From NCBI RefSeq assembly GCF_013035425.1, contig NZ_WQHX01000003.1:385001-449000 (forward strand): a stretch of 64,000 nucleotides of DNA, read 5' to 3'. The position numbers and the translations under genes are program-made. The stretch comes from Ruegeria arenilitoris (lineage in GTDB: Bacteria > Pseudomonadota > Alphaproteobacteria > Rhodobacterales > Rhodobacteraceae). The notes below the pieces were generated by a model, which searched no databases, was not told where the DNA came from, and was given only the letters and a program-made list of their open reading frames with translations. Each line of letters begins with the position of its first letter. Positions within the stretch are counted from its first letter, which is position 1. Of this stretch, positions 507 to 17,140 are shown piece by piece.

Positions 507-1109
507 TTAAATTTTGCACGCCATAAGAACAGTACGGCTTTGGGTTTCAGGGTCCTCGGCCAGAAAACCGGTCATTCGTAATTCGTTTTCTTCCAAACAA
601 ATGGCGTAGTCTGCTGGTGACAAAGACGCATGATATACAAGCTCTTCCCCAACAGTGCCGCTTACCTCTCCAGCACGAGGACCAACCGTCAGCATCAGCA
701 TCCCACCCGGCCGCAAATGGTGCGCCATACGAGCTATGCAGTTCTTTTGTTCATCTGCCGTCAGGTGGAAAAAGCTGTCCCATGCGATGATGCCGTCGAA
801 CTGCTGTTCCAACTCAAACTCACGCATATCTGCATGTCGCCAATCGCCATCAGGCCAACGTTCCCGAGCTATGGCTAGCATCGCCTCTGAGAAGTCGACG
901 CCTGTGACAGCAAAACCCTCTGCCATGAACCAGCGCGCGATCGGATCTCCCGAGCCACAGCCAAGGTCCAATACGTGATCACCCGGTTTCAGGCTGGCGG
1001 TGAAACGCGCCAGCCAACGCGCTTCGAACAGAGCTTTGGAACGTCGCTTGTCGAATTCTGTGGCTTGCCGTTCGTACACGGCGTGCGTGTCTTTCGGGTT
1101 TACATTCAT
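507..1109 (-). CDS. Class I SAM-dependent methyltransferase
   Basis: A 200-residue class I methyltransferase. Motif I (VLDLGCGSGDP) is at residues 46-56 and the acidic post-I strand (GVDFSEAM) at 70-77, with the rest of the Rossmann fold following. The ATG at 1107-1109 is preferred because it overlaps the stop of the upstream cupin gene in an ATGA junction; an in-frame TTG lies three codons further upstream. The substrate is not visible. It lies between a cupin and a MetE-like gene, so the three may form a methyl-handling end of the operon (inference). Confidence 0.85.
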   Translation of the reverse strand: MNVNPKDTHAVYERQATEFDKRRSKALFEARWLARFTASLKPGDHVLDLGCGSGDPIARWFMAEGFAVTGVDFSEAMLAIARERWPDGDWRHADMREFELEQQFDGIIAWDSFFHLTADEQKNCIARMAHHLRPGGMLMLTVGPRAGEVSGTVGEELVYHASLSPADYAICLEENELRMTGFLAEDPETQSRTVLMACKI

Positions 1110-2065
1110 TCTGTCCAAGTAGCTCCAGCCGGGTCGTCAGTAGCCGAAATCCGGTACAAACCTGCCTGTCCCGTCATTGACGGTTGAACGCTATAAGACT
1201 CACCGGGCAAGACCAAAGCGGTATCACCAGTGGACAACGTTGTCTCGTAACCATCCACCGAAATACGCCAGTGGCCACTCGCGGGCATCAGAACTACTGG
1301 TTTTTCGGCCGTGACTGGTTCGGTTACCGAGGAACCCCGACCAAGGAAATCGACTTCGAACCCCGGTTTGTCTTTGATCAGAGCATTTTCGCCGATCACC
1401 CGAGCGGGTTTGTTCGCCGACAGCGCCATCAGGTCCCAATAACGCGCAACATACTTTCCGACTACATCCTCGACCGGCACCTCTGGGTACTCTTTTAGTT
1501 GCTCTTCGGTCAGAAGAGGCATCGGTCGTACGTTGTGCGGCAATTCCTGACCCTTTTTTTTGTCATACAAAACGCCATTGTCACCAAGCATCAGCCCATG
1601 CTCCTGCGCGTCTTCGATTACCTGCGGCGCCCAGGTGACGCCGCCCCCCGCATCGTCGCCGCCCAGGATCGCCATGATCATTCCATAGTCTTGGCCGACA
1701 TTTTCGAACCCTCGGAAAATGCCGGTTGGGATATTGAAGATATCGCCCTCTTCGGCAATGAACTCGCCGGCTGTGCCATAACGGCCCCAAAAAAACCGCC
1801 ATCGCCCTTTGGCGACAAAGAAAACTTCGGCAGTTGTGTGGCTGTGCAAAGAGTTGCGACATTTCGGAGGTTGCCCAGCTGCCCCAATGTTGAAGCCTAT
1901 CTTATCGGTGATGTGCACATGCTGGTCTGGCGACTCGGAAACGCCACCGCCGATGATGGTGAAGTTTTCCTTTTGATCGCTGCCCGGTGTGTGGGCGTCA
2001 ATAAACGCCGTTTTGCAGGGCTGGAGTTCGCCATAGCGGACGATACGTTGTGTGATGGTGCTCAT
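1106..2065 (-). CDS. Two-domain cupin protein
   Basis: A 319-residue protein. The N-terminal cupin has a metal-type motif 1 (H74, H76, E80 in HSHTTAEVFF), but its second motif (IPTGIFRGFEN, 113-122) has no clear histidine. A second, degenerate beta-barrel runs from about residue 240 to the end. The size and fold resemble the gentisate dioxygenase/quercetinase-like bicupins, but no specific activity is indicated. The ATG follows a good AAGGAGA site. A 152 bp gap separates it from the upstream SnoaL gene, and its stop is coupled to the methyltransferase start. Confidence 0.75.
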   Translation of the reverse strand: MSTITQRIVRYGELQPCKTAFIDAHTPGSDQKENFTIIGGGVSESPDQHVHITDKIGFNIGAAGQPPKCRNSLHSHTTAEVFFVAKGRWRFFWGRYGTAGEFIAEEGDIFNIPTGIFRGFENVGQDYGMIMAILGGDDAGGGVTWAPQVIEDAQEHGLMLGDNGVLYDKKKGQELPHNVRPMPLLTEEQLKEYPEVPVEDVVGKYVARYWDLMALSANKPARVIGENALIKDKPGFEVDFLGRGSSVTEPVTAEKPVVLMPASGHWRISVDGYETTLSTGDTALVLPGESYSVQPSMTGQAGLYRISATDDPAGATWTE

Positions 2066-2217: not shown

Positions 2218-3207
2218 TCAGCTTTCTCCACCCTGCAGCAGAATTTGTTTCCAGACCGAAGTTTCGTCGAACAGCGTATATTCGCGACGCAGCAGCGGGT
2301 GGCCGGCGATCAACTCGCCAAATTCGGCGTGGCTGATGCCAAGCACATAGACCTGTGCGCCAGTCGGTACGCCAAAAACCCCCCAGCCGTCATGCTTACC
2401 CCAAAGGCTCCAGCGCAAAGCAGCACGAGGGGCCATGTTCGTGTCATCGCGGCCAATCTGGTGTTCGATCTTGAACTCCGCATTCGGGAAAGAGGCCCGA
2501 AGTCCCATCCAAAACCGGTCTACTGCACCCCAACCGTGGCCAGTGACACCGCCCACATATTCGGATTGCACGGCGCGGTCATACTCTGCTTCGATCGCAC
2601 CCATATCGGCGTTCATGATCCGGGTCAGAATGTCGGCGTAACGTTGTCCCCAATCGTTGTCGTTGCCTCGTCCTTCATAAGGTCCGGGCTGATCGGTTTC
2701 CGGGGTCAGTGGCCTGACGCAGTTATCCGCCCCGCCCTCACGTTCAATGAGGTCGGCCGCATATTCCTTTGGGTCCCAACCCATCTGACGCACAATTGCA
2801 CCTTGATCGCGGATCAGCCATTCGTCGTTGATCTGATTGTTGATTGCGTGACAATCGGCAAGAATCCGGTACCGCAGCTTGGTACCCGTTGGCTTACCGT
2901 ATACGCCTTCGGCCAGATGCGTAGCGGTTGAAATGATCCGGTGCGAGCTTAGCATGCCCTGTTCCGGTGTACCTGACCAGATTACATCCTCGCCCAAAAG
3001 CTGCCGGTCCGGAAACTCGGCCAGCGTCGCCATTGTTGCGCCGATAACGTTCTGATTACCCAGAACAACCGACCCGGGTGAACGAACGACGATATCGTCA
3101 CTGTAATACTCATGCAGGGTCGAGATACCCCGGTCTTCCCAGATCACCTTTGTGATACCAATGATATAGTCGGGAAAATCCCGAAATTTGGGATCAAAGC
3201 CTTTCAT
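2218..3207 (-). CDS. Two-domain SnoaL-like (NTF2-fold) protein
   Basis: A 329-residue protein made of two SnoaL/NTF2-like domains, about residues 1-150 and 170-329. Members of this fold are small cone-shaped cyclases, isomerases, hydratases or hydrolases. It is one of four relatives in this locus (others at 5011-6063, 7403-7933 and 12797-13816). The ATG at 3205-3207 overlaps the TGA of the LacI gene in an ATGA junction and has an AAAGGACA site, so it is co-translated with the repressor. No catalytic residues can be assigned with certainty. Confidence 0.8.
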   Translation of the reverse strand: MKGFDPKFRDFPDYIIGITKVIWEDRGISTLHEYYSDDIVVRSPGSVVLGNQNVIGATMATLAEFPDRQLLGEDVIWSGTPEQGMLSSHRIISTATHLAEGVYGKPTGTKLRYRILADCHAINNQINDEWLIRDQGAIVRQMGWDPKEYAADLIEREGGADNCVRPLTPETDQPGPYEGRGNDNDWGQRYADILTRIMNADMGAIEAEYDRAVQSEYVGGVTGHGWGAVDRFWMGLRASFPNAEFKIEHQIGRDDTNMAPRAALRWSLWGKHDGWGVFGVPTGAQVYVLGISHAEFGELIAGHPLLRREYTLFDETSVWKQILLQGGES

Positions 3208-4247
3208 GTTTCTGTCCTTTGTGGGGCCCACCCTTTTGGCAAACGGGCCGAGGTTCGCACGACCAGTGGCCCATCAATGGCCACCTTGCGAGGCTCGGCC
3301 ATTTCCGGGGTGTCGATATGTTCAAAAAGCGCGTCAACAGTTTCGGTCACCATTAGATTGGCCCGCTGTCGGATTGTAGTCAGATTGTAGGCGGGCCACC
3401 CGGCAGGCGGTACATCGTCATAACCCACGACTGAGATATCCTCGGGTACGTTTAGGCCAAGTTCAAAACGTATGACGTCCATCACAGCCAGTGCCATGTG
3501 ATCGTTGGCGACGAAGACGGCATCGGGTCGTTTGTCTGGTGCAACATCAAACATTCGTCGGGTCGCAGCGCGGGCGTTTTCGGTGTGAAAATCACCGACC
3601 TCATGAGCGAAAAGGTCTCGCCCGGCCTCTGTAAGCGCGGCTCGGAAACCAGCTTCGCGGTCGCGTTGGGTCGAAGCACCTTGCCAACCCGCGATATAGG
3701 CTATCCTTTCATGCCCCCCATCAATAAGGAACTCGGCCACTTTGCGACCCCCAGCGTAGTTGTCGGAAGTAACAGTGGTGATGCCTTCGATATCCTGACT
3801 GCGGTTAAACAACACAACCGGAACCCCAGCCTGCTGGCAGCGCATCGCTATGTCCGACGACATCGGGACCGACGCCAAAATAACCCCGTCGACCTGATAA
3901 TCGAGGATTTCGTCCATCACATTGTCGATATTCCCAGCCGAGCGAGAAGCCATGAAGATCAAAACGTGATAGCCTTGTTCCTGCAGCGCGTTCGACAGTT
4001 TTTCGAGCGCTTCGGGATAGAAGTAGTTGTCCAGATAGCCGACAACCAATCCGATGATACGGCTTTTGCCGGATACCATCGCGCGGGCTAAAACATTGGG
4101 GCGATACCCCAACTTAGCGGCCGCCTTCCGCACTTTATCTTCGGTTTTTTTACTGACCGAAGCACCGGGTGTGAACACCCTGCTGACGGCGGATTGGCTG
4201 ACGCCGGCAAGTTGGGCAACTTGAAGTGATGTCACCTTTTCAACCAT
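3204..4247 (-). CDS. LacI-family transcriptional repressor
   Basis: A 347-residue LacI/GalR-type regulator. A helix-turn-helix (TSLQVAQLAGVSQSAVSRVF, residues 6-25) and hinge are followed by a periplasmic-binding-protein-like effector domain. The start at 4245-4247 shares one base with the SDR stop (TGATG), and the end overlaps the next SnoaL start. The two palindromes with central CG at 12667-12684 and 12722-12737 have the form of LacI-family operators and are its most likely sites. The effector is probably a sugar, polyol or acid imported by the linked ABC system (inference). Confidence 0.93.
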   Translation of the reverse strand: MVEKVTSLQVAQLAGVSQSAVSRVFTPGASVSKKTEDKVRKAAAKLGYRPNVLARAMVSGKSRIIGLVVGYLDNYFYPEALEKLSNALQEQGYHVLIFMASRSAGNIDNVMDEILDYQVDGVILASVPMSSDIAMRCQQAGVPVVLFNRSQDIEGITTVTSDNYAGGRKVAEFLIDGGHERIAYIAGWQGASTQRDREAGFRAALTEAGRDLFAHEVGDFHTENARAATRRMFDVAPDKRPDAVFVANDHMALAVMDVIRFELGLNVPEDISVVGYDDVPPAGWPAYNLTTIRQRANLMVTETVDALFEHIDTPEMAEPRKVAIDGPLVVRTSARLPKGWAPQRTET

Positions 4248-5011
4248 CAGTCCGCCGTCCAACCTCCGTCGATCAGCATCGAAGTGCCTGTAACCAAAGC
4301 AGAAGCGTCGGAAGCAAGATAAGTGACTGCACCCATGATATCTTCGACCTCGCCCACGCGATCCAGCTTGATCTTCTCCATAATCCACGCAGCGCGTTCA
4401 GGATTTTCAAACGTGGATTGCGTCAAGGGTGTGCGAATAAATGTCGGGCAAATTGTGTTGATGCGAATTCGCTGCTTGCCCCATTCAATGGCCATAGCTT
4501 TGACCATACCTTCGAGGCCATGCTTGGTTGCGCAATAAAGCGCCCGGTCAACCCCGCCCACATGGCCCATCTGACTTGAGATGTGAATGATTGACCCTGG
4601 CTTTTCTGCTGCCATCAAGGCCTTGGCGGCATAAGCCGACAGGAAATAGGCTGATCGCAGATTAACGTCCGCGACGGCGTCAAAATCCTCGGGCGTAGTC
4701 TCAATCGCCGGACTATGTCGTGCGATACCAGCAGAGTTCACTACCACGTCGAATACACGGCCCTCAAAAATCCGATTTAGGGCAATAAGATCACCCTGAT
4801 CTACGACCGCAGCCTCGGACGACCAGCCCTGCCTTTGCAATGCCGCAACGGTTTCATCTAATCGCTCCTTGCCTCTGGCGGCGCAAACGACGTGAGCACC
4901 TGCTTCGGCAAGAGCTACCGCGCAGCCCTGACCGATGCCCGACGAAGCGCCGGTTACTAAGGCGGTCTTTCCGCTAAGGGAAAACGAAGGGGTACGTGGC
5001 AATTCGGTCAT
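4247..5011 (-). CDS. Short-chain dehydrogenase/reductase
   Basis: A classical SDR of 254 residues: cofactor motif TGASSGIG (20-27), NSAG (92-95), catalytic Ser145, Tyr159 and Lys163 (YCATK), and a C-terminal IDGGW. It should oxidise or reduce an alcohol/ketone with NAD(P). The nearest functional groups are sugar-acid and polyol dehydrogenases (KduD/gluconate 5-dehydrogenase-like), but the substrate is not determined. Start and stop both share one base with the neighbouring genes (TGATG at each end), which shows tight translational coupling with the SnoaL gene before it and the repressor after it. Confidence 0.92.
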   Translation of the reverse strand: MTELPRTPSFSLSGKTALVTGASSGIGQGCAVALAEAGAHVVCAARGKERLDETVAALQRQGWSSEAAVVDQGDLIALNRIFEGRVFDVVVNSAGIARHSPAIETTPEDFDAVADVNLRSAYFLSAYAAKALMAAEKPGSIIHISSQMGHVGGVDRALYCATKHGLEGMVKAMAIEWGKQRIRINTICPTFIRTPLTQSTFENPERAAWIMEKIKLDRVGEVEDIMGAVTYLASDASALVTGTSMLIDGGWTAD

Positions 5012-6063
5012 CAGTGCATTCCATCGGGAACATCGATGCGACCTATGTTGCGAGCCTTGTTGAATTCTCGCAATCGGGCAAAGACGTCGACACCAAGCTG
5101 TCGGTAGGCGTCAAGAAGGTCGACCAGAACCCAATTCTCGCGGATCTTGCCGTTTTCAAGTCGCCAGAAATCGAGACTCCGCATGGTGATCATTTTTCCT
5201 GAAGGAACAATCCCCATCCAGCCGTCACCAGTAACCGTCTGAATCATGTTAGGCCAGCCGGTCACAGCGGCATATTCGCCATCACCGAAGAAATGGTAGA
5301 TTATGTCATCAACGTACTGCCCGCGGTCCGGCATGCCATTCAAGAATGGAATTTGGTGCCAGTTTCGAAAGCCAGCGTAACCACGGCCGGTCCCTATACC
5401 CGAAGGGCCGTACCAGTTCATGCGAGGGTGCCAGAACCGTTCCATCTCCATCACCTCGGGGCCACCTTGGGATGGATGTCTTTTTAGAAATTCAAGCATT
5501 TCTATTATGTGTTGACAGGTCTTGGTGCCCTTAGCTTCATCGTAGGGCCCCGGAACAAAACCGTCTTGAGTGGCTGGACCGGGCACATGCCATTCGAGAC
5601 CCAGGCTCGGGGACATTGGCCAGGCTTTGGCCTGTATCATTACTTCGGGGATGTCCCAAAGTGCCTGAAACTCAACGACTTTGCCATCTACAAAACGGTA
5701 GAATTCGTGAAACCGCATGGTTGCCTGATGACCGGTGGGCGGGATATCCAGCCAAGGCCCGATGAAGGTACCCGTATAGTAGCCACCACAGCCGACCCAG
5801 TCAGCTCCACCGTCGTCCGGTCCGGCCATGACAATGTAGTCACGACGTTCTAAATCAGGCCAGGCATCCAAAAGGTTCTTATAGGCGCAATCGAAAAAAG
5901 CATCACTGCCTGTGCTGTCGCCAAAAGGATGGCACAGGTGGAACGCGGCGTCTGAGCTTGTCACTTCGGCCAACGCTTTGCGTACACCGGCCTCGGAAAA
6001 GTCGTACATCGCCGCCCTGAGTGGTGCGATCAGGGCTTTGTGTTGTGTGTGCTTGTCACTCAT
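5011..6063 (-). CDS. Two-domain SnoaL-like (NTF2-fold) protein
   Basis: A 350-residue paralogue with two SnoaL domains. Domain 1 carries [10 protein letters not shown] and an FYR-VDGKV strand; domain 2 carries WYGPSGIG, the SGK-RSLDFWR strand and [19 protein letters not shown]. The same segments recur in the proteins at 12797-13816 and 7403-7933. The ATG at 6061-6063 forms an ATGA overlap with the HpsN-like gene, which excludes the longer reading. Paralogues of the SnoaL class can be ester cyclases, lactonizing or dehydrating enzymes; here the role is unknown but must serve the dehydrogenase it is coupled to. Confidence 0.82.
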
Positions 6064-7391
6064 TCTGCGGCGTCCCGGTAGGGGGCGGGTTCGCCGTAGG
6101 GTACGTTGATACCGCCATAGCGACGCACGCGAACGTTGCACTGTTCGGCATGGCCAACAAAACCTTCCAGCATGCACAAGCGCGAGCCATACTCACCAAT
6201 AAGCGTCGCCGCTTCATCGGTCAGTACTTTCTGATAGCTGTGAGTTTTCAGATACTTTCCCACCCAAAGCCCACCGGTATAGCGCCCGGCTTTTTTTGTT
6301 GGCAATGTATGGTTTGTTCCGATCACTTTGTCGCCATTTGAAACATTTGTACGCGGACCAAGAAACAGAGCACCGTAGCAAGTCATGTTCTCAAGGAACC
6401 AGTCGTCGCGGTCGGTCATTACCTGAACATGTTCCGAGGCGATGTCATCGGCGACCTTCAGCATCTCGTCATACGTGTCGCAGACGATCACTTCGCCATA
6501 CTCGTCCCATGACACTTTCGCGGTGCCAGCTGTAGGCAGGATACCCAGCAAACGGTCGACTTCGGACATGGTATCTTCGGCCAATTTGCGTGAGTTGGTC
6601 AGCAGAACGCAGGGGCTGTTATAGCCATGCTCAGCCTGACCAAGCAGATCGGTCGCGCAGAGTTCCGCATCAGCTGCTGTCTCATCCGCAATAACCATTG
6701 TCTCGGTTGGCCCCGCGAACAGGTCTATACCGACGCGACCAAACAATTGGCGTTTGGCCTCTGCGACAAAAGCGTTGCCGGGACCCACCAGCATGTGAAC
6801 GGGATTAATGGTCTCGGTTCCCAAAGCCATTGCGCCGATCGCCTGAATGCCGCCCATAACGTAGATTTCATGCGCACCGCCGAGATGCATGGCTGCAATC
6901 ACCGCCGGGTTTGGCTTGCCTTGGAAGGGAGGTGTACAAGCGATGATCCGAGGAACACCAGCAACTGAGGCGGTAGCCACGGACATGTGGGCAGAGGCCA
7001 CCATTGGAAACTTTCCACCAGGCACATAACATCCAACAGATTGTACAGGGATGTTCTTATGACCCAATATGACGCCAGGCAGAGTTTCAACCTCGATGTC
7101 CAACATTGAATCCCGCTGCGCCTGCGCAAAATTACGTACCTGTTCTTGCGCGAATTTGATATCGGCAATTTCACGATCCGTCAGTTGTCCAATAAGACTA
7201 TCGATTTCCTTCTGGCTGAGACGGAATGACACCGGCGAATAGTTGTCAAACTTCTCGCTCAACTCACGCACGGCTGCGTCGCCGCGGGCTTCGATGTCTT
7301 TCAGCGTTGCTTCAACCACAGCGCGGGTCTTGGCGTCATCTTCTGCCCGGTCCTCGTCGGATTTGCCGCGTTTCAAATATTCGATTGCCAT
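6060..7391 (-). CDS. HisD/HpsN-family dehydrogenase (zinc, NAD-dependent, alcohol to acid)
   Basis: A 443-residue histidinol-dehydrogenase-family enzyme. By alignment with E. coli HisD the zinc ligands would be Gln252, His255, Asp354 and His414, and the catalytic pair Glu320-His321 (SEH). It is not in a his operon. Stand-alone Roseobacter members resemble HpsN, the sulfopropanediol 3-dehydrogenase that oxidises an alcohol in two steps to the acid. HpsO, HpsP and the sulfonate transporter genes are absent here, so sulfopropanediol is only one possible substrate. A TGAGGA site overlaps the preceding stop; the stop overlaps the next SnoaL start. Confidence 0.88.
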
Positions 7392-7402
7392 GGTGCTAAT
7401 CC

Positions 7403-7933
7403 TCAGTTGTCGGGCCGGGGCGGAGCTTTCTCTCCCCGGTCAAATGCTTCCCAGCCTTCACCTTTGAATACATCCACGCCTAGCTGCGCGGCGACATGGG
7501 CGAAATCCACATTCACCCAGTTGTCGACGATCTTGCCGTCGACGACTTTCCAAAAGTCCATATATCGGATCTCGACCCGCTTGCCGGTGGGCGCGATGCC
7601 TAGGAACTCGCCGGAATGAGTGGCTTCCTGACGGCCAAAGGCTGCCGCCCACTCGCCCATGTACAGGCGTGCCTCGTCAATGCAGGTCTTGTCAGAGAAT
7701 GCGGCCTGAAACGGGCGCTGCCAGTTGTCCTGAAATTCCTGCAGGCCCACCTTTGTGCCGCAGCCCTGATTGCCCATCCAGCGGAAGCCTTGGGCGAAGA
7801 ATTCTCCGATGTCGTCAATGCGGTGGTCGTTTAAACCGTCGACCATGGTTTCAATAACGCGGCGCGTGTCTTCGGTTTTGCTCATGTCCGTTTCGCGGGT
7901 CAGAACCGCTTGTTCAGGACGGGAACCTTTCAT
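7403..7933 (-). CDS. Single-domain SnoaL-like (NTF2-fold) protein
   Basis: A 176-residue protein that matches only the C-terminal domain of the two-domain relatives: MGNQGCGT, the [13 protein letters not shown] strand and [20 protein letters not shown]. It may represent the ancestral unit whose duplication gave the longer paralogues (inference). The ATG at 7931-7933 has an AAAGGACA site with good spacing. It is the first gene of the catabolic half of the operon; two short hairpins lie in the 127 bp between it and the transporter genes. Confidence 0.85.
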
Positions 7934-8015
7934 GTCTTTGTCCTTTCAGGTTGCCAGTAGGAGGGATTGGGATGTTTGACCCCAAATCTCAGAAAATCCC
8001 TCGGCATCCTGTTCA

Positions 8016-8045
8016 GCGCCGGATGGCGCGACATAGCGTTATGTC
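8016..8045 (-). other. Tandem small hairpins between transporter and enzyme genes
   Basis: Two perfect inverted repeats follow each other: GCGCC/GGCGC (8016-8029) and GACATA/TATGTC (8030-8045). They sit just downstream of the second permease on the transcribed minus strand. There is no T-tract, so they look more like mRNA-stabilising or processing hairpins than a terminator. Confidence 0.4.
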
Positions 8046-8060
8046 TTGCATTCTTGCTCA

Positions 8061-9215
8061 TCAACCTTTGACCGCCCCAGCCGTCAGGCCGCTCACGATC
8101 TGGCGCTGGAATATCAGTACAAGGAAGATCAGTGGCGCGGTGATCGATACCGCAGCGGCCACAGCAACAACCTGATCTGTTGTAGTCGTCTCACGGTTGA
8201 ACATTCCCACAATTGCCGGAACCATGGTTTGGTTTTGTGCGTCCAGTAGAAGCGCGGTTACAAGAAAATCGTTATAAGCCAGCAGAAAGCTAAACAAACC
8301 GGTCGTAATAACGCCAGGCCACATCACAGGCATGATGACCCTGCGAAAGGCCTGAAAGTGGCTGCAACCATCAACACGGGCGGCCTCGTCCAATTCAGCC
8401 GGAATGTTCTGGAAGAATGACCTCAGCATCCAAATCGTAAACGGTTGGTTGATGGCGACAAGCACGGCGATCACGGCGAACGGCTTGCCATATAGGGTTG
8501 GCGCATTGTCGCCCAGTATCGGGCTAAGCCATTCGGCAGAGTTGATAAAGACCGGAAGATAACCTGCGACAAGCACGGAATGGGGCAGTGCGCGGAACAC
8601 CAGAGCGACGATAAGAATCCAGAAAGCTAGCGTGGACCCAGACCGGGCCAGACCATAACCCGCCAAAGTTCCAACAGTCAGTGAAACCGTTACAACTCCA
8701 GTGGTGACAATAAGTGAATTCTTAAAGTTGTTCGAGAACCCTCGGTCTATCCAGACAGTTTTGTAGTGCTCGGTTGTTAGGCCAAGAATGTCGCGTCCAA
8801 GCGGGCCAAACAACGGATTGAGCAAGGCAAGAAACGTTGGCAAAATAACAAAGAAAACCAGTAGAAAACCCAATAGCAAAGTCAGCACACCAATCAGCCA
8901 ACCAAACCATTCTTGCCCAGGTTTAGTGTAGGATTTCACCAAAGATGGAAGGGTCCTGGTTGCGACAATGATCGTTGCCCAAATAACCGCCACACCAAAA
9001 ATAATGTCCAAAAGTGACAGACCTTTGCCGACACCCAAGGTTGCCGGGCCGAAAATAACGTTCAGCGCATTACTATCGAAGGCGTCCACTGGTGACTTGA
9101 AGCTCATCACAACGATCCAAAAGATCGGGAAGGACGCAATCAGACACCAAAGCGCCAGACAAACGTTCGAAGTCAGGCGTAAGCTGAATGGCTGGCGAAG
9201 TGCGCGAGAGGACAT
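8061..9215 (-). CDS. ABC transporter permease, MalG-like with extra membrane segments
   Basis: A 384-residue inner-membrane permease of the carbohydrate-uptake class. The EAA loop that docks the ATPase is visible (ELDEAARVDGCSHFQAFRRV), followed by the MalG-type C-terminus. It is about 100 residues longer than a normal MalG: after the first membrane helix there is an inserted segment with about two or three further hydrophobic stretches before the usual periplasmic loop. The ATG at 9213-9215 follows an AAGGGGG site, two bases after the upstream permease stop. Partner of the permease at 9217-10239. Confidence 0.9.
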   Translation of the reverse strand: MSSRALRQPFSLRLTSNVCLALWCLIASFPIFWIVVMSFKSPVDAFDSNALNVIFGPATLGVGKGLSLLDIIFGVAVIWATIIVATRTLPSLVKSYTKPGQEWFGWLIGVLTLLLGFLLVFFVILPTFLALLNPLFGPLGRDILGLTTEHYKTVWIDRGFSNNFKNSLIVTTGVVTVSLTVGTLAGYGLARSGSTLAFWILIVALVFRALPHSVLVAGYLPVFINSAEWLSPILGDNAPTLYGKPFAVIAVLVAINQPFTIWMLRSFFQNIPAELDEAARVDGCSHFQAFRRVIMPVMWPGVITTGLFSFLLAYNDFLVTALLLDAQNQTMVPAIVGMFNRETTTTDQVVAVAAAVSITAPLIFLVLIFQRQIVSGLTAGAVKG

Positions 9216-9216
9216 A

Positions 9217-10239
9217 TTAATGACCCCCTTTATGATCACGCCAAGTGCGGCGCAGCGGTAGGATAAGTAGGATAACAACACCGATCATGGTTAGCATCGA
9301 GTTGGCCGAAGCCCGGCTGATCGACCGGTTGCCTGCCTGATCCGGGGTCAGGTAGTCGAAAGTCAGCCACTGCAATGAGATGACATAGCCTTGGCTCGAG
9401 AAACCTACGATTTCTTCGAAAACGCGGTAGCTGTCCATCAAATGGATCATCGACACGAAGATAATCAAAGGCATCAGGTGGGGGATGACTATGTATTTCA
9501 AACGCTGCCAACGGGTTGCGCCGTCGATCACCGCGCTTTCCAGACTGTCCTGATTGACGGTTTGTAGACCCGCATAGAAAACGATGGCGGCGAAAGGCGC
9601 CACGTGCCAAACGCGATAAAGCATCATCAGAATTTCGATTGTCCAAGCCTGCGCAAACAGAGCGATATCGCGGTTTAGCCACCATTCAATCAGTGCGGTC
9701 AGAATGCCATCACCACGGAACAGCCAATTGATCGACAGCACACCGATCACAGGCGTGATGATGAAGGGCAAGAGCGAAATGAATATCACCGGTCCACGTA
9801 TTGATTTGGCCGCGTTGTTGATCAAAATTGCTATCCCCAGCCCACAACCAACAACCAAAGGCAGTGTGATCAAGGTGAAGGTCAGAGTGAAACGCAGCGC
9901 TTTCCAAAAGTTTATCGTCGACAAAACGTGCCAATTACCGTCGCTTATCGCGCGCCATGCCCGTTCCGGTTCCAGAACATTGCGATAGCTTTGCAGCCCG
10001 ACATATTGGGTTTGCGTGATCACCTCACCATGCTCATCCAATTTCGGCTGCGAAACTTGTTCCGTCACGCAAGTTTGTTTCAGAAAACCGGGTGTACAGG
10101 TTTCCTTTTCGACCGTCTCGTAGATTGGTTGAGTGACATAGAAACTTTGTTTGAACACGCTGACCAGTGGGAAAGCGATAAAGAGAAGCATCATAAAGAC
10201 AGAAGGGCCGACAAAGGCGGCAAATGTCCGGAAATTCAT
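9217..10239 (-). CDS. ABC transporter permease, MalF-like
   Basis: A 340-residue permease with about six membrane helices, a large periplasmic loop after the first helix (residues about 35-105, with two Cys) and an EAA-type loop (ESAVIDGATRWQRLKYI). It forms the heterodimeric channel with the next gene. Uptake of a sugar-like compound is expected from its class. The gap to the binding-protein gene is only 67 bp, so it is in the same operon. Confidence 0.9.
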   Translation of the reverse strand: MNFRTFAAFVGPSVFMMLLFIAFPLVSVFKQSFYVTQPIYETVEKETCTPGFLKQTCVTEQVSQPKLDEHGEVITQTQYVGLQSYRNVLEPERAWRAISDGNWHVLSTINFWKALRFTLTFTLITLPLVVGCGLGIAILINNAAKSIRGPVIFISLLPFIITPVIGVLSINWLFRGDGILTALIEWWLNRDIALFAQAWTIEILMMLYRVWHVAPFAAIVFYAGLQTVNQDSLESAVIDGATRWQRLKYIVIPHLMPLIIFVSMIHLMDSYRVFEEIVGFSSQGYVISLQWLTFDYLTPDQAGNRSISRASANSMLTMIGVVILLILPLRRTWRDHKGGH

Positions 10240-10306
10240 GGCTCTGCCTTTCTCATGGTTCTCAGGAACAGGGCGAGGGAGGACCGAAGCCCTCCCCGTG
10301 GAAGGA

Positions 10307-11518
10307 TCAGTTGCTGATCAAGCCAGCTTCCTTTGCAGCGGTAACATAATCCGCCTCGATATCGGCCAATGTAGTCTGCGCGTCCTTTGCGCCAGTGAGA
10401 TAATCGGCCAGACCGTTACCCAACGCTGTGTGCATTATGCCCATCGGACCAGATGCCGGATATGGCTTGGCACCGGCTTCAGCAGATGCTGCAGCTCCTG
10501 CTGCCAGCGGACCAGCCGCGTAAGCCGGGTTAAGCCACACCGCCGCATCATTGTTGGCGCTGACCATATCACCGTCGATACCTTCCATAGCTACGCGGAA
10601 GGCAGCGTCAGCCTCTTCATCGCTCATGTTCGATGCCAGGACGATACCGTCCCACCAAATTGTGGTCGCTGGTACTGCAGAACCCATAGGGGCCGCTGAC
10701 ATAGTCACCTTGCCAACGACCTGGCTTTCAGCCTCATCATTCATGGCAGCCGCGCGGCTGGCCCAAAGATTTGCAATGGCAATCTTGCCCTGCTGAAACT
10801 GCTGCTGCACGTAGGTTGAGTCGGAGACTAGATATTCCGGGTCCATGTACTCGGTCATCGATTTAAGCGTCTCAAGGGCCGCAACTCCCTGTTCGTTGTT
10901 GATAGCCGGCATATTGCCATCCCCAAAGAACGAACCACCTTCACCCAAGTACATGTTGACGAATTCCTGGCCCAAGTTCCAACCGGTCTTGAAGGTTCCG
11001 CCGATTGGGTATTCCATCACTCCAGCATCTTTGATCTTGGCTGCTGCGGCCAGAACGTCAGCGTAGGTTTTGGGTTCCTCTATGCCCAATTCTGCCAGAA
11101 CATCGTCCCGGTACATCAGGTGCTGCGCGTTCACCATCATGGCTATCGCCATGGTTTTGCCATCCACTTTGATCAGCTGGTTTGGCAGCAAGTCCTGGCC
11201 GTATTTCTCAACCAGATCATCCAGCGGCCGGATCGTTCCCGCGTTCAGCAAAGGCACCAGAGTGGCGTTCGATACGCCGCCGATCTGGTAAAGTGCTGGG
11301 TCAGCCGCAAAAGCTTCGGGTTGTTTTTCGCGGAATTCCTGGTCCAGCGAGGCGCTGAAATTACCACACTCTGCCATCGCATCTGTGACGGCTTTCCACG
11401 CTTCAAAGCCAGCCGAAAGCGATTTCAGCGGCACTTCGTTTTCAAAGGTGCAATCGGCCCATGCACCACCAGCGGCGATGGACACAGCACCTGCCAATAG
11501 GATCGTCTTGATTTTCAT
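10307..11518 (-). CDS. ABC transporter substrate-binding protein (sugar type, cluster B)
   Basis: A 403-residue periplasmic solute-binding protein of the UgpB/MalE class. A signal peptide (cleavage near AWA-D, residue 21) is followed by the two-lobed fold; aromatic residues of a likely binding cleft (Trp267-Trp268 in the TIWWDG segment) are visible. The start has a GGGAGAA site. It is encoded between the ATPase and the permeases, the normal order for this transporter class. The ligand is unknown. Confidence 0.92.
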   Translation of the reverse strand: MKIKTILLAGAVSIAAGGAWADCTFENEVPLKSLSAGFEAWKAVTDAMAECGNFSASLDQEFREKQPEAFAADPALYQIGGVSNATLVPLLNAGTIRPLDDLVEKYGQDLLPNQLIKVDGKTMAIAMMVNAQHLMYRDDVLAELGIEEPKTYADVLAAAAKIKDAGVMEYPIGGTFKTGWNLGQEFVNMYLGEGGSFFGDGNMPAINNEQGVAALETLKSMTEYMDPEYLVSDSTYVQQQFQQGKIAIANLWASRAAAMNDEAESQVVGKVTMSAAPMGSAVPATTIWWDGIVLASNMSDEEADAAFRVAMEGIDGDMVSANNDAAVWLNPAYAAGPLAAGAAASAEAGAKPYPASGPMGIMHTALGNGLADYLTGAKDAQTTLADIEADYVTAAKEAGLISN

Positions 11519-11593
11519 GCGTTTCTCCCTGTCAGGATCGGTCCGTCGTCGACGTCCGGACCGGTGTTTTGCCCGTGAGGACAGTTTATGGGG

Positions 11594-12640
11594 CTAGTCC
11601 CCGATCCGCGCACCGCTTCCAGCTTTGAAGAGGTGACAGATTTCTGTCGGCACCGAGAAAGAGACTGTTTCGCCAATCTCGGCGCGAAATGCTTTGTCAG
11701 CCTTGACTGAAACCAGCGCGCCGCCAACACGCACCGAGATCATGGTCGCATCGCCCAGTAACTCCAGTGTATAGATCGGAGCCGTGATCTGACCTTGACT
11801 ATCGGCAAGGCTTGCATCTTCGGCGCGAAATCCGAGCGTCAGCGGTCCGTCCGGAGCATTTACCGGAATTTCGACATGTTCGGTACGGAACACACTGCCG
11901 CTTACCTCGCCCTCCATCAGGTTCATCGCAGGCGACCCGATGAAGCTGGCCACAAAAGTGTTTGCAGGGCGGTCGTAAATCTCGGTCGGGCTTCCGACCT
12001 GTTGCACCACCCCCTGCTTCATGACTACTACGCGATCAGCAAGGGTCATGGCCTCGATTTGATCATGGGTCACGTAGATCGTTGTCACTGCCAGTTCATG
12101 GCTGAGATTTTTGATTTGCGCCCGGGTAGATACCCTTAACTTGGCGTCCAGGTTGGACAACGGCTCATCCATCAGGAACACGTTAGGTTCGCGGACAATT
12201 GCGCGGGCCAGTGCCACACGCTGCCGCTGACCACCCGACAACTCCGCAGGCTTGCGGTGGAGGAAGTCGTCTAACTCGACCATAGCGCTGGCGCGGCGCA
12301 CCTTTTCATCGTGGGTCGAAGGGTCGATACCGCGAACCTTCAACGGGAAGCGGATGTTTTCATAAACGTTCATGTTTGGGTAAAGAGCGTAACTCTGAAA
12401 CACCATCGCTACGTCTCTGTCCTTGGGTTCCAGATCGTTAACTACATTGCCGTCAATCATGATGTCGCCTTCGGTCACATCTTCCAAGCCGGCTATCATC
12501 CGCATGGTAGTAGTCTTGCCGCAACCGGAGGGACCCAGAAGAACCAGAAACTCTCTATCCGCAATTGTCAGGTCGAAATTGTGGACCCCGACAAAAGAGC
12601 CCCAGCGTTTACCGACATTGCGCAGTTGAATTTCTGCCAT
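11594..12640 (-). CDS. ABC transporter ATPase (MalK/UgpC/MsmK class)
   Basis: A 348-residue ATPase: Walker A GPSGCGKTT (36-44), signature LSGGQ (134-138), Walker B VFLMDEP (154-160), H-loop His192, then a C-terminal TOBE/OB regulatory region typical of carbohydrate importers. The ATG at 12638-12640 is chosen because the family starts MAEIQLRNV; upstream in-frame codons fall in the operator region. It is the first gene of the long minus-strand operon, directly downstream of the two LacI-type palindromes. Confidence 0.95.
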   Translation of the reverse strand: MAEIQLRNVGKRWGSFVGVHNFDLTIADREFLVLLGPSGCGKTTTMRMIAGLEDVTEGDIMIDGNVVNDLEPKDRDVAMVFQSYALYPNMNVYENIRFPLKVRGIDPSTHDEKVRRASAMVELDDFLHRKPAELSGGQRQRVALARAIVREPNVFLMDEPLSNLDAKLRVSTRAQIKNLSHELAVTTIYVTHDQIEAMTLADRVVVMKQGVVQQVGSPTEIYDRPANTFVASFIGSPAMNLMEGEVSGSVFRTEHVEIPVNAPDGPLTLGFRAEDASLADSQGQITAPIYTLELLGDATMISVRVGGALVSVKADKAFRAEIGETVSFSVPTEICHLFKAGSGARIGD

Positions 12641-12666
12641 AGTGCCTACTCCCGGGAAGGATTCGT

Positions 12667-12684
12667 TTTGCATACGTTTGCAAA
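12667..12684. promoter_or_regulatory. LacI-type operator, promoter-proximal
   Basis: TTTGCATACGTTTGCAAA is a near-perfect palindrome around a central CG, the standard form of a LacI-family operator. It lies 27 bp upstream of the ATPase start codon and would cover the promoter or transcription start of the minus operon. A possible minus-strand promoter (TTGCCA near 12710 and TATTAC near 12690) lies between this site and the next; the promoter call is weak. Confidence 0.75.
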
Positions 12685-12721
12685 ACTGTAATATTGCCTC
12701 ATCATTTCTGGCAAGACATTT

Positions 12722-12737
12722 TTGCATACGTATGCAA
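12722..12737. promoter_or_regulatory. LacI-type operator, promoter-distal
   Basis: TTGCATACGTATGCAA is a perfect 16 bp palindrome with central CG. It shares its sequence with the operator at 12667-12684, and the centres are 54 bp apart, close to five helical turns. It lies 60 bp upstream of the divergent SnoaL gene at 12797, so one repressor could control both directions. Confidence 0.8.
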
Positions 12738-12796
12738 GAATGTTGTTTGTGGCCGACTCAATTCGATAGCCCGCCGTTCGTAAAGCGCTGATTAAA

Positions 12797-13816
12797 ATGG
12801 TAAATACCGTGAGTTTTCAATCGGAAAAAAAACTGGTTTCGGCGTTTCACGCCGCCTTGGACTCTGCCAAAGAGCAGGAAGTTCAATTTGTAATGTCACA
12901 ATTCTGCGCTTCTGATTTGGTGTGGCATGGCTTTCAGCCATTCAACCAAATCAACGGGGCGGAACAGGTGGCTCTGCAATTCTGGCAGCCGCTCAAAAGC
13001 AGTATTACGAATCTCCAGAACCGTATAGATATCATGTTCGCCGGACAAAACTCGCTGAGCGATGATGCTGACATCTGGGTCGTGTCCATGGGGAATTTAA
13101 TGGGGCTGTTCGACCAACCGTGGTTGGATATTCGTCCAACAGGCAAATTGGCATTCCTGCGCTATTGCGCATTCTACAAAATAGTCGAAGAACGGATCGT
13201 TGAGACGGCGATGTACTTCGATATACCACACCTGATGGTGCAAGCAGGGCAAAACCCGTTTCCCCCTCAGACCGCAGCGCATTTGCTGCAACCCGGCCCG
13301 AGAACCCACGACGGCTTGTTATTTAGTGAGCAACCCGTTGAAGAGGGCAAGAAGACCATGGCCGTAATAAATGCGATGATCGCAGATCTGGGTCAGTGGG
13401 ACAGTGGGTTGTCGCTTGAAGACGAGTTAGCCCGAAGCTGGCATGATGACATGATCTGGTGGGGGCCAGAAGGAATTGGCGCGACTTACACGATTGAACG
13501 CTATTCCATGCAACATTCCGGCCCTTTTCGCGCCTCTTTCAAAGACCGGACAAAGACAAAACATGTCTGCCGCCTTGCCGAGGGTCGCTATGGCGGCTTT
13601 TTCGGATGGCCTAACTTCACGGCCGTTCCCACCGGTGGGTTCATGGGTATGCCAGCGACGGGTAAAGCAAGTGAATTCAGAGTGATCGACATCTATCGTC
13701 GCGCCGGTGACAAACTTGCCGAAAATTGGATTTTCATAGATCTTCTACACTTCTGGAAGGGGCAAGGCGTCGATATTCTGGCACGCACCACTGGGATCGA
13801 AACGCCATGCGGATAG
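12797..13816 (+). CDS. Two-domain SnoaL-like (NTF2-fold) protein
   Basis: A 339-residue paralogue of the protein at 5011-6063: domain 1 has QPWLDIRPTGK and the FYK-VEERI strand, domain 2 has WWGPEGIG, the TGKASEFRVIDIYRR strand and ENWIFIDLLHFWKGQGVDI. It is divergent from the transporter operon, across the shared operators. No clear ribosome site precedes the ATG at 12797; a GTG four codons downstream is an alternative. Its end overlaps the amidohydrolase start by 10 bp. Confidence 0.82.
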   Translation: MVNTVSFQSEKKLVSAFHAALDSAKEQEVQFVMSQFCASDLVWHGFQPFNQINGAEQVALQFWQPLKSSITNLQNRIDIMFAGQNSLSDDADIWVVSMGNLMGLFDQPWLDIRPTGKLAFLRYCAFYKIVEERIVETAMYFDIPHLMVQAGQNPFPPQTAAHLLQPGPRTHDGLLFSEQPVEEGKKTMAVINAMIADLGQWDSGLSLEDELARSWHDDMIWWGPEGIGATYTIERYSMQHSGPFRASFKDRTKTKHVCRLAEGRYGGFFGWPNFTAVPTGGFMGMPATGKASEFRVIDIYRRAGDKLAENWIFIDLLHFWKGQGVDILARTTGIETPCG

Positions 13817-14676
13817 ATGCACATCACCACTTATGGGATTTGTCTGCAGTGAATTATCCTTGGCTAATGGAGAAAGGTGTCATTCGCTTTTTTGGCGACC
13901 CCTCTTCGATCCAACGGGACTACTTGCTGCCGGAATTCCGGGTTGACGCCGAAGCTCAAGGCGTCGCGGCATCGGTGCATATCCAAGTCGGCGCAGTCGA
14001 TCCATGGGCCGAAGCTCAATGGGTGCAGTCCATAGCCGAACAGTTCCAGGATTGGCCGTTAGTTCAAGTTGCGTATTGCGATTTGACCGCTGATGATTCG
14101 GAGGAACAACTCGATCGTCTTCAAACCTTATCGTCGGTACGCGGCGTTCGCCAGATTATCGGTCGCGCTCCGGGTGAAGATGCAAAAACAGGTACGAACG
14201 CGCTGCTCCACAATCCAAAGTTTTTGTCCGGCCTTAGACAATTGGGTTCACGCGGTCTTTCATTTGACCTTCAATTGTTGCCTGAACTCATGGATCAAAC
14301 GGCGGACGTTCTTGCGAATGCTCCTGATACTCAGGTCGCGCTTTGCCATGCCGGATCCCCATATGACCGGACATCATCTGGGCTTCTTAAGTGGGCCGAA
14401 GCTTTGAAATCTTTGTCTGACTTGCCGCAGGTCTACTGCAAGCTTTCTGGCCTCGGAATGTTCGACCAAAACTGGAACGCCAAAAGTGTTTCGCCAATCT
14501 TTTCAACTTGCTTATCGCAGTTCGGCGCCGATCGCTGCATGTTTGGATCGAATTTTCCTGTCGATAGCCTCAGTTCCACTTATGAAGAAGTTGTTTCAAG
14601 GCATTTTGAACTGACCCCAAGCTCTTTACAGGACGATGTTTTCCGAAAAACTTCGAAACGCTTTTATCGCATCTAA
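13807..14676 (+). CDS. Amidohydrolase-family lactonase-like protein (COG3618 type)
   Basis: A 289-residue metal-dependent hydrolase of the amidohydrolase-2 family. It begins MRIDAHHHLWD (the HxH metal pair) and ends with the conserved GSNFPVD segment. Relatives include L-fucono-/L-rhamnono-lactonases and 2-pyrone-4,6-dicarboxylate lactonase, so opening of a lactone made by one of the locus dehydrogenases is likely (inference). The ATG at 13807 overlaps the SnoaL gene by 10 bp, showing coupling; a longer in-frame reading from 13726 would add 27 non-homologous residues. Confidence 0.88.
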   Translation: MRIDAHHHLWDLSAVNYPWLMEKGVIRFFGDPSSIQRDYLLPEFRVDAEAQGVAASVHIQVGAVDPWAEAQWVQSIAEQFQDWPLVQVAYCDLTADDSEEQLDRLQTLSSVRGVRQIIGRAPGEDAKTGTNALLHNPKFLSGLRQLGSRGLSFDLQLLPELMDQTADVLANAPDTQVALCHAGSPYDRTSSGLLKWAEALKSLSDLPQVYCKLSGLGMFDQNWNAKSVSPIFSTCLSQFGADRCMFGSNFPVDSLSSTYEEVVSRHFELTPSSLQDDVFRKTSKRFYRI

Positions 14677-14859: not shown

Positions 14860-16044
14860 CTAGCGCGCTTGCAATATTGCGGTCTCGGTGAGGGCGCGGA
14901 TCTCATCCACGCTGGCTGTTCGGGGATTTGTCGCTGCCGCGCTGTCCATTTTTGCTTTTCCCGCAATGCGCTGGGAACAATCCAAGGGAACGTTAATAGC
15001 ACTCAGAGACTTTGGTATTCCAATGTCATCCAATATGCGTTCAACCTCCGCTATGAAGGCTTCTATGGAGTGGTCGTTAAGCCCCATCGCATATGCCATC
15101 CTTTTCACTTTTGGTTCCATGCCGGGGAGATTAAACCGCAACACGACTGGCAGGATGATCGCATTTGTCAGCCCATGTTGCGTGTTAAATTCTGCCCCAA
15201 CCATGTGCGAAATGGCATGGACAAGGCCGAGACCTTTTAAAAACGAAATCCCGGCCAGGCATGAACCCATGAGCATTCCTCCACGGGCGGCCATGTTCTC
15301 GGGTTCACGTACGGCAATCGGAAGCCAGGCGGACACAAGCGCCAAACCCTCCAATGCAAGTCCATCGCACAGTGGATGGAACCCGGGGACCAGATAAGCC
15401 TCTATCGCATGTGTCATCGCGTCTGCGCCCGTCCAAGCCGTCAAATCTGGTGGAAGGCTGATTGTCAATTCTGGATCCAGAAGTGCAAGAGACGGTTTTA
15501 AGTCCGGGTGCCAGACGCAGAACTTCATACCTTTTTTGACATGCGTGACCATTGCGGTGCTTTCGGTCTCGGCACCAGTCCCTGCCGTTGTCGGAACGGT
15601 TATTAGGGTCGGGAAGGGCTTGCTTGATGCAATCTCGGGAACAGGTTGTTCAAACTCGAAAGCCCATAGATCAATCTCGTTGTTTGCAGTCAGGCATATG
15701 GACTTTCCGCCGTCCATTGCGCTGCCGCCTCCAATCGCAATAATCGCGTCGTGACCGCCGTTCCTGAACAAATCACGACCAGCACCGATTTCGTCATCGC
15801 GTGGGTTAGGCGAAATGTCGAAGAACACATCCGAAGATATGCCGGAGTCAGTCAGTGAGCCTTGTAACTTAGAAAGAAAGGGTAAGGTCTGGCTTCCGCG
15901 ATCGGTGACAATCAACGGCCTTGCGACACCAAGCGCGACGCACCTTTCGCCAATCTCCGCTAATCGACCTGGGCCGTAGGCGATCGGCACGGGAAAGGTC
16001 CAGTCCTGAGGTTGTAGGATTTCAGCGTCTTTCTGAATTTGCAT
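14860..16044 (-). CDS. Iron-containing alcohol dehydrogenase / maleylacetate-reductase family
   Basis: A 394-residue group III dehydrogenase. The NAD motif GGGSAMDGGK, TTAGTGAE, the DAMTHAIEAY metal segment and the later His residues in VHAISHMVGAEFNTQHG give the expected Asp/His/His/His metal site. It likely reduces or oxidises a small alcohol/aldehyde in the locus. The ATG at 16042-16044 is preferred over an upstream TTG. It converges with the amidohydrolase at 14676. The protein also serves as an internal full-length reference for the shortened relative at 36858-37931. Confidence 0.92.
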   Translation of the reverse strand: MQIQKDAEILQPQDWTFPVPIAYGPGRLAEIGERCVALGVARPLIVTDRGSQTLPFLSKLQGSLTDSGISSDVFFDISPNPRDDEIGAGRDLFRNGGHDAIIAIGGGSAMDGGKSICLTANNEIDLWAFEFEQPVPEIASSKPFPTLITVPTTAGTGAETESTAMVTHVKKGMKFCVWHPDLKPSLALLDPELTISLPPDLTAWTGADAMTHAIEAYLVPGFHPLCDGLALEGLALVSAWLPIAVREPENMAARGGMLMGSCLAGISFLKGLGLVHAISHMVGAEFNTQHGLTNAIILPVVLRFNLPGMEPKVKRMAYAMGLNDHSIEAFIAEVERILDDIGIPKSLSAINVPLDCSQRIAGKAKMDSAAATNPRTASVDEIRALTETAILQAR

Positions 16045-16702: not shown

Positions 16703-17140
16703 TCAAACTGAGCAAGTTTCGCGGATCAGGGTATTTTCCAACCCAAGTTTATCCAATTGATCTGTTATCTTGTCCCTCGAGGACTTAGCTGCGATCTCAA
16801 ATGCCTGTTTGTCGGCCCAAGTATTCTCTGGGTGAAGAAATCGTGCTGCCTCGTCTGGACCATTCGACGGAATTCGAGTGGTCCAGACGCTGCCATTGAC
16901 AAAAGGACCATCTGACAGCGTGCCGTCCATGGCGGCCTGCAACAATGCCCGTGTCGCCGCGATAGGCATCCAGTGCCCAGTATCGGCTCCACCACCGGTC
17001 CAGCCCGTGTTTATCAGCCATGCGCGCGCCCCGCTTTTCTTCAGCCGAGATGCGAACATATCGGCATATACTTCCGGCTTACGGGTAAGAAATGGCGCTC
17101 CGAAGCAGGTCAAAATGTAGGAGTGGGGCGCGCGTAACTC
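16703..17140 (-). pseudogene. C-terminal remnant of PEP carboxykinase (ATP), pckA
   Basis: The open frame gives about 140 residues that match only the last quarter of ATP-type PEP carboxykinase: TCFGAPFL, LINTGWTGG, MPIAATRALLQAAMDGTL, and ENTWADK near the end. A full enzyme has about 530 residues with its P-loop and metal site upstream; none of that is present. The frame is closed upstream by a TAG at 17141-17143, and no further similarity is seen beyond it. Some conserved positions are changed (GGGADTGHW where GGAYGTG is usual), as expected for decay. Confidence 0.85.

Follow-up and report, generated by a model that had tools for sequence, protein, structure and literature searches.

The 64,000-nucleotide stretch of Ruegeria arenilitoris DNA analysed here (contig NZ_WQHX01000003.1, positions 385,001 to 449,000; hereafter the window) carries three two-domain and one single-domain SnoaL proteins, named SnoA to SnoD, which are grouped with a sugar-class ATP-binding cassette (ABC) importer, a HisD-family dehydrogenase, a short-chain dehydrogenase/reductase (SDR), a bicupin and a LacI-family repressor (Table 1). 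Judged from its gene content, this cluster may be an operon, repressed by LacI, for the catabolism of a cyclohexenone with methoxy and several hydroxyl groups; mycosporine-like amino acids (MAAs) or gadusols would be the likeliest substrates, a reading to which we assign a probability of about 40%. The genes probably specify a catabolic pathway that has not been described before and that ends in an aldolase. More tentatively, they could constitute the first gene-level route for the mineralisation of MAAs or gadusols, in which tandem SnoaL proteins would act as imine hydrolases and a HisD-type enzyme as gadusol dehydrogenase, while a bicupin would cleave the demethylated ring to 4-carboxy-4-hydroxy-2-oxoadipate.

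The clues behind this proposal are the release of a hydroxyamino acid (serine ammonia-lyase), an O-methyl group of the enol or aryl type (DesA-like and MetE-like proteins), the conversion of CH2OH to COOH (HisD), cleavage with O2 (bicupin) and a retro-aldol end step (RraA or HpaI). MAAs possess a cyclohexenone or imine ring with a 2-methoxy group, a C5 bearing OH and CH2OH, and amino acids at C1 and C3. They were preferred as substrates because they carry all the groups demanded by these clues. What the sequence comparison itself establishes is a single group of genes whose twin operator is conserved, an importer of the sugar class, a HisD enzyme without the sulfonate residue of HpsN, and an enzyme set common to many roseobacters and, in rearranged form, to other proteobacteria.

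Gene organisation and regulation

The importer genes open a minus-strand series transcribed in the order ATPase, binding protein, two permeases, SnoC, HisD, SnoB, SDR, LacI, SnoA, bicupin and methyltransferase, and SnoD followed by the amidohydrolase is found on the plus strand (start codons were picked by eye from the list of open reading frames). Overlaps of 4 bases (HisD/SnoB), 1 base (SnoB/SDR), 1 base (SDR/LacI) and 4 bases (LacI/SnoA) link HisD through SnoA, in agreement with the tight coupling reported in an earlier note on this DNA, and gaps of 127 and 152 bases precede SnoC and the cupin, respectively. Every gene named in that note was found in the window.

Table 1. Features of the SnoaL/HisD cluster and its surroundings (window coordinates; last column, number of the 80 related loci with a tblastn match)
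Feature	Position	Strand	Evidence and remarks	Loci
Methyltransferase, SAM-dependent	507-1118	-	Pfam Methyltransf_25 2.3e-20; accessory	17
Bicupin, candidate ring-cleaving dioxygenase	1106-2065	-	Cupin_2	67
SnoA, two-domain SnoaL/NTF2	2218-3207	-	PF07366 + PF12680	75
LacI-family repressor	3204-4247	-	PF00356, PF13377	73
SDR dehydrogenase	4247-5011	-	nearest NCBIfam model KduD, under its cut-off	66
SnoB, two-domain SnoaL	5011-6063	-	two PF07366 stretches	80 (query)
HisD-family dehydrogenase, HpsN-related	6060-7391	-	PF00815 6.9e-131; GKFPM instead of GRY[AS]H	66
SnoC, single-domain SnoaL	7403-7933	-	PF07366 2.8e-22	69
ABC permease B	8061-9215	-	PF00528	
ABC permease A	9217-10239	-	PF00528	
Solute-binding protein, SBP_bac_1 (sugar/polyol class)	10307-11518	-	PF01547	72
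ABC ATPase, MalK type	11594-12640	-	PF00005, OB_MalK, TOBE_2	71
LacI-type operator site 1 (predicted)	12667-12684	.	palindrome, TTTGCATACGTTTGCAAA	
LacI-type operator site 2 (predicted)	12721-12738	.	palindrome, TTTGCATACGTATGCAAG, 54 bp from site 1	
SnoD, two-domain SnoaL, divergent from importer	12797-13816	+	PF07366/PF12680	56
Amidohydrolase	13807-14676	+	PF04909; nearest NCBIfam model L-fucono-1,5-lactonase, under cut-off; overlaps SnoD end	36
Iron-type dehydrogenase (Fe-ADH)	14860-16044		not a cluster member	0

The two palindromes are placed between the ATPase and SnoD genes. When up to two mismatches to TTTGCANNCGNNTGCAAA were allowed, a site was found in 68 of the 71 loci that cover this region, 59 of which have two or more sites, spaced 54-56 bp apart in 58 of them; elsewhere in these loci there are five such sites. 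The window has two matches to the pattern against 0.16 expected, the pattern itself having been derived from these loci. The three loci without an operator (L042, L074 and L082) also have no LacI gene, and L066 has a two-mismatch site and no LacI gene. A LacI gene together with a conserved palindromic operator ahead of the operon is the arrangement of a LacI-controlled ABC operon. Since the twin operator between importer and SnoD is conserved, the importer operon and the SnoD/amidohydrolase genes very probably form one LacI regulon, as had been suggested in the earlier note, whose view of a catabolic architecture is likewise supported. Three further two-mismatch operator-like sites are present in the source genome.

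Conservation of the cluster

Scanning genomes with SnoB yielded 191 relatives, the best 80 of which were kept as loci (numbered with L; genomes with G). By record title they belong mainly to Ruegeria, Shimia and other roseobacters, with some Roseibium, Oceaniradius and others. A gene was counted by tblastn at identities of at least 38-40%, coverage above 40% and more than 80 bits, so that genes cut by contig ends score as missing (for example HisD in L049, L057 and L067), and diverged SnoD homologues (29-35%) were excluded from the SnoD count; synteny based on open reading frames had under-counted genes in GC-rich loci and was replaced by these counts. The neighbourhood proposed in the earlier note, with SnoaL, HisD and importer genes together, recurs in most of the 80 loci and is largely colinear (Table 1; the two permeases are found in 73 and 72 loci).

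The operon runs beyond the window, where a MetE-like protein (PF01717), an alpha/beta hydrolase and an RraA-like protein (PF03737) are encoded at L124:14988-17496, their families having been assigned through the orthologues in L012. These genes, present in 60, 56 and 56 loci, respectively, provide the best clue to the end of the pathway. Of the other genes that the earlier note had counted in, the amidohydrolase is indeed present in the window, but less than half of the loci have it, and the iron-type dehydrogenase has to be removed from the cluster: none of the 80 loci has a match, and 32 of the 36 amidohydrolase loci extend 600 bases or more past that gene, into the place expected for the dehydrogenase. 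The aldo-keto reductase at 17555 had no match in the 80 loci either, most of which end short of its expected place.

The HisD-family dehydrogenase

The closest solved structures of the HisD protein are those of HpsN (phmmer to PDB 8v35, 4.5e-113). In the HpsN report, the motif G-R-Y-A/S-H, of which His126 binds zinc or sulfonate, is what sets HpsN apart from HisD with G-S-A-P-L (PMC11382572). All 66 of 66 orthologues of the cluster enzyme read GKFPM here, with Met at the position of His126, and 10 other relatives that are 64-89% identical read GK[FY]P[ML]. Of the 66, 64 retain the GDK context of Asp352-Lys353. By its motif the dehydrogenase is neither HpsN nor HisD. Membership of the HisD family and the GDK context are shared with HpsN, and the same two-step alcohol-to-acid chemistry is expected, in a different gene context; the enzyme presumably turns a CH2OH beside a C-OH into a carboxylate.

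The pattern of the GKFPM type was detected in 19 of 398 genomes. Two genomes outside the window's family, G043 and G091, have such a HisD without SnoaL, and the motif match of G137 looks like a chance occurrence, its stretch L164 showing no HisD. In L162:8750-10856 and L163:9501-11569 a HisD of this branch and an SDR adjoin genes resembling Gfo/Idh or 3-hydroxyacyl-CoA dehydrogenases. The HisD and SDR pair may be a reusable module for the oxidation of diols.

The SnoaL proteins

All four SnoaL proteins exceed the curated cut-offs of PF07366 or PF12680, and they account for 6 of the 12 PF07366 matches in the source genome (4.79 Mb). SnoB and SnoD share 32% identity across 326 positions; SnoC aligns with the C-terminal domain of each, and SnoA stands far from the others. 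The set looks like an old expansion and not a recent duplication. An identity as polyketide methyl-ester cyclases was rejected, all four proteins being under the cut-off of the NCBIfam model SnoaL_meth_ester (200 bits; 43.4 bits for SnoC, the best, 19.5 for SnoB and none for SnoA and SnoD).

A predicted model of SnoB (predicted local distance difference test, pLDDT, 82; predicted template modelling score 0.87) was compared by Foldseek. It matched the single-domain cyclases IdmH, AclR, ChaU and SnoaL2, the two-domain epoxide hydrolases Lsd19/MonB and, at rank 43, PhzA/B. The NTF2 fold is common to all of these, and Lsd19/MonB are two-domain proteins like SnoB. Nevertheless the whole proteins do not superpose (root-mean-square deviation, rmsd, 16-18), and the Lsd19/MonB match consequently counts per domain only; moreover the setting here is catabolic, with an importer, in contrast to that of the SnoaL/AclR/IdmH cyclases and of Lsd19/MonB. 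PhzA/B is an imine-forming enzyme that acts on an (amino-)cyclohexenone, and analogous chemistry is proposed for the SnoaL proteins, although PhzA/B has a low Foldseek rank, is biosynthetic and consists of a single domain.

Bicupin, RraA-like and MetE-like proteins

Residues H74, H76 and E80 of the bicupin are invariant in 24 of 24 aligned sequences, and the motif PTG-x-FRGF is present in 67 of 67 cupins. The top fold match of its model (pLDDT 77.5) was quercetin 2,3-dioxygenase, followed by 3-hydroxyanthranilate 3,4-dioxygenase, oxalate decarboxylase and salicylate dioxygenase, and a distant Vibrio-like cupin has a weak match to the 3-hydroxyanthranilate dioxygenase model (1.4e-6, under cut-off). 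Fold and profile matches agree with a role as candidate ring-cleaving dioxygenase, short of proof.

The RraA-like protein, judged from its L012 orthologue, satisfies the Pfam RraA-like model and matches LigK weakly (2.3e-8; 33.9 bits against an NCBIfam ligK cut-off of 304.5), and the alpha/beta hydrolase is PcaD-like. The MetE-like protein was detected at 60% identity or more in 12 of 299 Pseudomonadota genomes, all of them within the 15 that have matches to the SnoB query below 1e-40; the remaining three of these 15 are Vibrio-like. More distant homologues (39-49%) are present in seven further genomes, among which only G139 matches SnoB, and weakly so (4e-6). Near some of these distant homologues (L178-L185) lie genes resembling lignostilbene/carotenoid oxygenases, PcaR and aromatic transporters, named by eye, which hints at a role of the MetE core in methoxyaromatic breakdown.

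Relatives with changed parts

Three clusters outside the window's family (L125+L167, L128+L160 and L126+L161) keep HisD (64-68%), the cupin (42-47%), the hydrolase, LacI and SnoaL, and have a sodium:solute symporter in place of the importer. Two of them have TonB-type receptors (by eye), and L126+L161, which is Vibrio-like, has genes for a tripartite ATP-independent periplasmic (TRAP) type transporter too. An HpcH/HpaI aldolase is present in all three, with no match to RraA. As RraA is replaced by an HpaI-type aldolase, the end step is probably the retro-aldol cleavage of a 4-hydroxy-2-oxo acid. The three aldolases are 47-50% identical to one another and 25-29% to the aldolase of L162, and the symporters 53-60% to one another and 38-40% to the symporter of the Vibrio SnoD loci.

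In four of the five lone-SnoD loci read from Vibrio or Vibrio-like genomes (L127, L129, L138 and L166; not L136) an L-serine ammonia-lyase is encoded beside the symporter; the Vibrio-like label was deduced from similarity to V. europaeus. Proteins resembling sulfatases (by eye) are encoded near L127 and L129, and sulfated MAAs exist (PMC3083659).

A cluster on a Halobellus plasmid contains five annotated ester cyclases, a MetE-like protein and an aldehyde dehydrogenase. On the far side of an IclR gene lies a protein that best fits the syringate O-demethylase family DesA (4.4e-141; 470 bits, under the cut-off of 800). Two other DesA-like matches (L119 and L047; 21-27%) fall at genes of the sarcosine oxidase/dehydrogenase type. 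On a Vibrio pelagius plasmid (L119:15821-21987) a four-subunit sarcosine oxidase and purU directly follow the SnoaL genes, and genes of serine, glycine or threonine type were seen near some other relatives.

Proposed pathway

In the first step of the proposed MAA route the SnoaL/NTF2 proteins would hydrolyse the enamine or imine bonds, freeing glycine, serine or threonine and leaving 4-deoxygadusol, whose CH2OH beside the ring C-OH would then be oxidised to COOH by the HisD enzyme with NAD. The ring O-methyl group would be removed in a third step, in which the MetE-like protein might be the methyl acceptor or regenerate the folate. Demethylation and oxidation would yield a cyclic reductone, C7H8O6, across which the bicupin would next add O2. 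By the exact mass balance C7H8O6 + O2 = C7H8O8, derived in this analysis, a ring opening between C2 and C3 would produce 4-carboxy-4-hydroxy-2-oxoadipate. The compound is the substrate of the 4-carboxy-4-hydroxy-2-oxoadipate (CHA) aldolases of the RraA fold, and the RraA-type protein, or the HpaI-type aldolase in relatives, would split it into pyruvate and oxaloacetate. Four further proteins, namely the methyltransferase, the amidohydrolase, the SDR and the alpha/beta hydrolase, have no place in these steps and may serve side-chain variants or lactones.

The sphingomonad route for gallate and syringate employs the LigK aldolase, LigI and DesA/LigM. It has in common with the cluster an RraA-type protein, a PF04909 amidohydrolase and, in Halobellus only, a DesA-like neighbour, whereas the cluster has HisD, the SnoaL set, LacI and a sugar-class ABC importer, and no Lig-type ring-fission dioxygenase was recognised in it. 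Closer to the first proposed step, a review records the suggestion that Vibrio harveyi attacks shinorine and porphyra-334 by hydrolysing their hydroxyamino acids, and states that bacteria form 4-deoxygadusol from both (PMC3083659); the passages on this name no gene. Such a release is mirrored by the Vibrio loci that pair SnoD with L-serine ammonia-lyase. Among the matches listed from the open-access literature there was neither a published assignment of the gene set nor a report of MAA breakdown genes, and the earlier note's idea of an undescribed pathway is retained within that scope.

Several observations weigh against the MAA/gadusol proposal. The clues were drawn from different organisms: a full-length DesA-like gene occurs only in Halobellus among all loci searched, and the roseobacter clusters contain no conserved amino-acid-degrading gene, the only recurrent family of this kind being dimethylglycine/sarcosine-dehydrogenase-like (3 loci, by eye). 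The MetE-like gene was not found in L126/L161 and is absent from 20 of the 80 loci (some cut by contig ends), 7 of which keep both the hydrolase and RraA-like genes. In the bicupin the position of the third metal-binding His is Arg (R118), its model fits the matched folds only loosely (TM about 0.4-0.5, rmsd about 8-12), with oxalate decarboxylase and seed storage proteins also among them, and the RraA-like protein is far under the cut-off for CHA aldolase (LigK). HisD of the GKFPM branch is also paired with an SDR in L162 and L163, which have no SnoaL and carry polyol-type genes alongside, so HisD is not an MAA marker. The partial association of distant MetE-like homologues with aromatic-degradation-like genes (names by eye) could favour an aromatic substrate. 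Finally, L042, L066, L074 and L082 carry only the importer and one or two SnoaL genes. These four are LysR-linked mini-clusters, possibly a minimal unit of uptake and hydrolysis.

Alternative substrates

Other substrates were considered with the help of a survey of the 17 families recurring in at least three loci, which were judged by eye, three of them being scanned with Pfam. Another polyol, a branched sugar or a uronate is a somewhat unlikely substrate. HisD would form a sugar acid, the KduD-like SDR and the bicupin would act as KduD/KduI, the SnoaL proteins would dehydrate or isomerise and the aldolase would cleave a 2-keto-3-deoxy acid. The sugar-class importer, whose binding protein has mostly sugar-binding proteins as solved relatives, agrees with this, as do LacI, the KduD model nearest to the SDR, the polyol-like surroundings of HisD and SDR in L162 and L163, and the similarity to GarL that is also seen in the HpaI-type aldolases of relatives. 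Yet no sugar kinase, isomerase or Gfo/Idh was recognised among the recurrent families, such routes offer no known function for four SnoaL proteins and a MetE-like protein, and the TonB-type receptors and DesA-like protein of relatives would be unaccounted for.

A methoxylated aromatic compound or its glycoside, degraded by a gallate-like route to 4-carboxy-4-hydroxy-2-oxoadipate, is unlikely. It would explain the DesA/LigM-like protein of Halobellus, the weakly LigK-like RraA protein, the PF04909 amidohydrolase, the PcaD-like hydrolase and the aromatic-type genes (by eye) near distant MetE-like homologues, but HisD and four SnoaL proteins would be superfluous, the importer is of the sugar class, and no extradiol dioxygenase or ring hydroxylase was recognised by eye among the recurrent families.

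A methylated sulfonium compound similar to dimethylsulfoniopropionate (DMSP), with the MetE-like protein as methyl acceptor, is less probable again. A Marinovum plasmid has the cluster beside DMSP genes and an SBP56-type protein is found near relatives in Marinovum and Phaeobacter, but the association is confined to one or two records, the importer is of the sugar class, and the Halobellus demethylase matches DesA at 4.4e-141 against 8e-14 for DMSP demethylase; this candidate was set aside.

A variant of the sulfopropanediol (2,3-dihydroxypropane-1-sulfonate, DHPS) pathway, which the kinship of the HisD protein to HpsN structures might suggest, is very improbable because the dehydrogenase lacks the sulfonate-sensing His126 of HpsN, the motif differing in all 66 orthologues and the 10 other relatives; sulfolactate-lyase and other sulfonate-lyase genes and HpsO/HpsP were not recognised by eye among the recurrent families, for which no profile search was made. 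The earlier note's opinion that this is not the standard sulfopropanediol route is thus probably correct.

Other features

A GMC-family alcohol oxidase is inserted beside the importer ATPase, SnoC and HisD genes in two genomes (L130:9576-11096, choline-dehydrogenase-like, and L165:10741-12255, called by eye). In the source genome a sulfatase-like protein (by eye) is convergent on the operon end (L124:13394-14851, plus strand). A 136-residue fragment at 16703-17113 of the window (minus strand), between the iron-type dehydrogenase and the aldo-keto reductase, aligns with ATP-type phosphoenolpyruvate carboxykinase over the C-terminal part alone (376-459 of 465) and looks like a gene remnant. An Rfam scan of the window gave no match.

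Significance

MAAs are natural sunscreens of algae and corals. If the cassette is an MAA route, their fate in seawater, on corals and in salterns would become traceable by gene. The SnoaL proteins would moreover gain a catabolic role, and a branch of HisD proteins that records now label histidinol dehydrogenase would be defined. Even with another substrate, a set that is conserved in roseobacters, and of which Vibrio and a haloarchaeon keep a part, points to a common nutrient that still awaits assignment.

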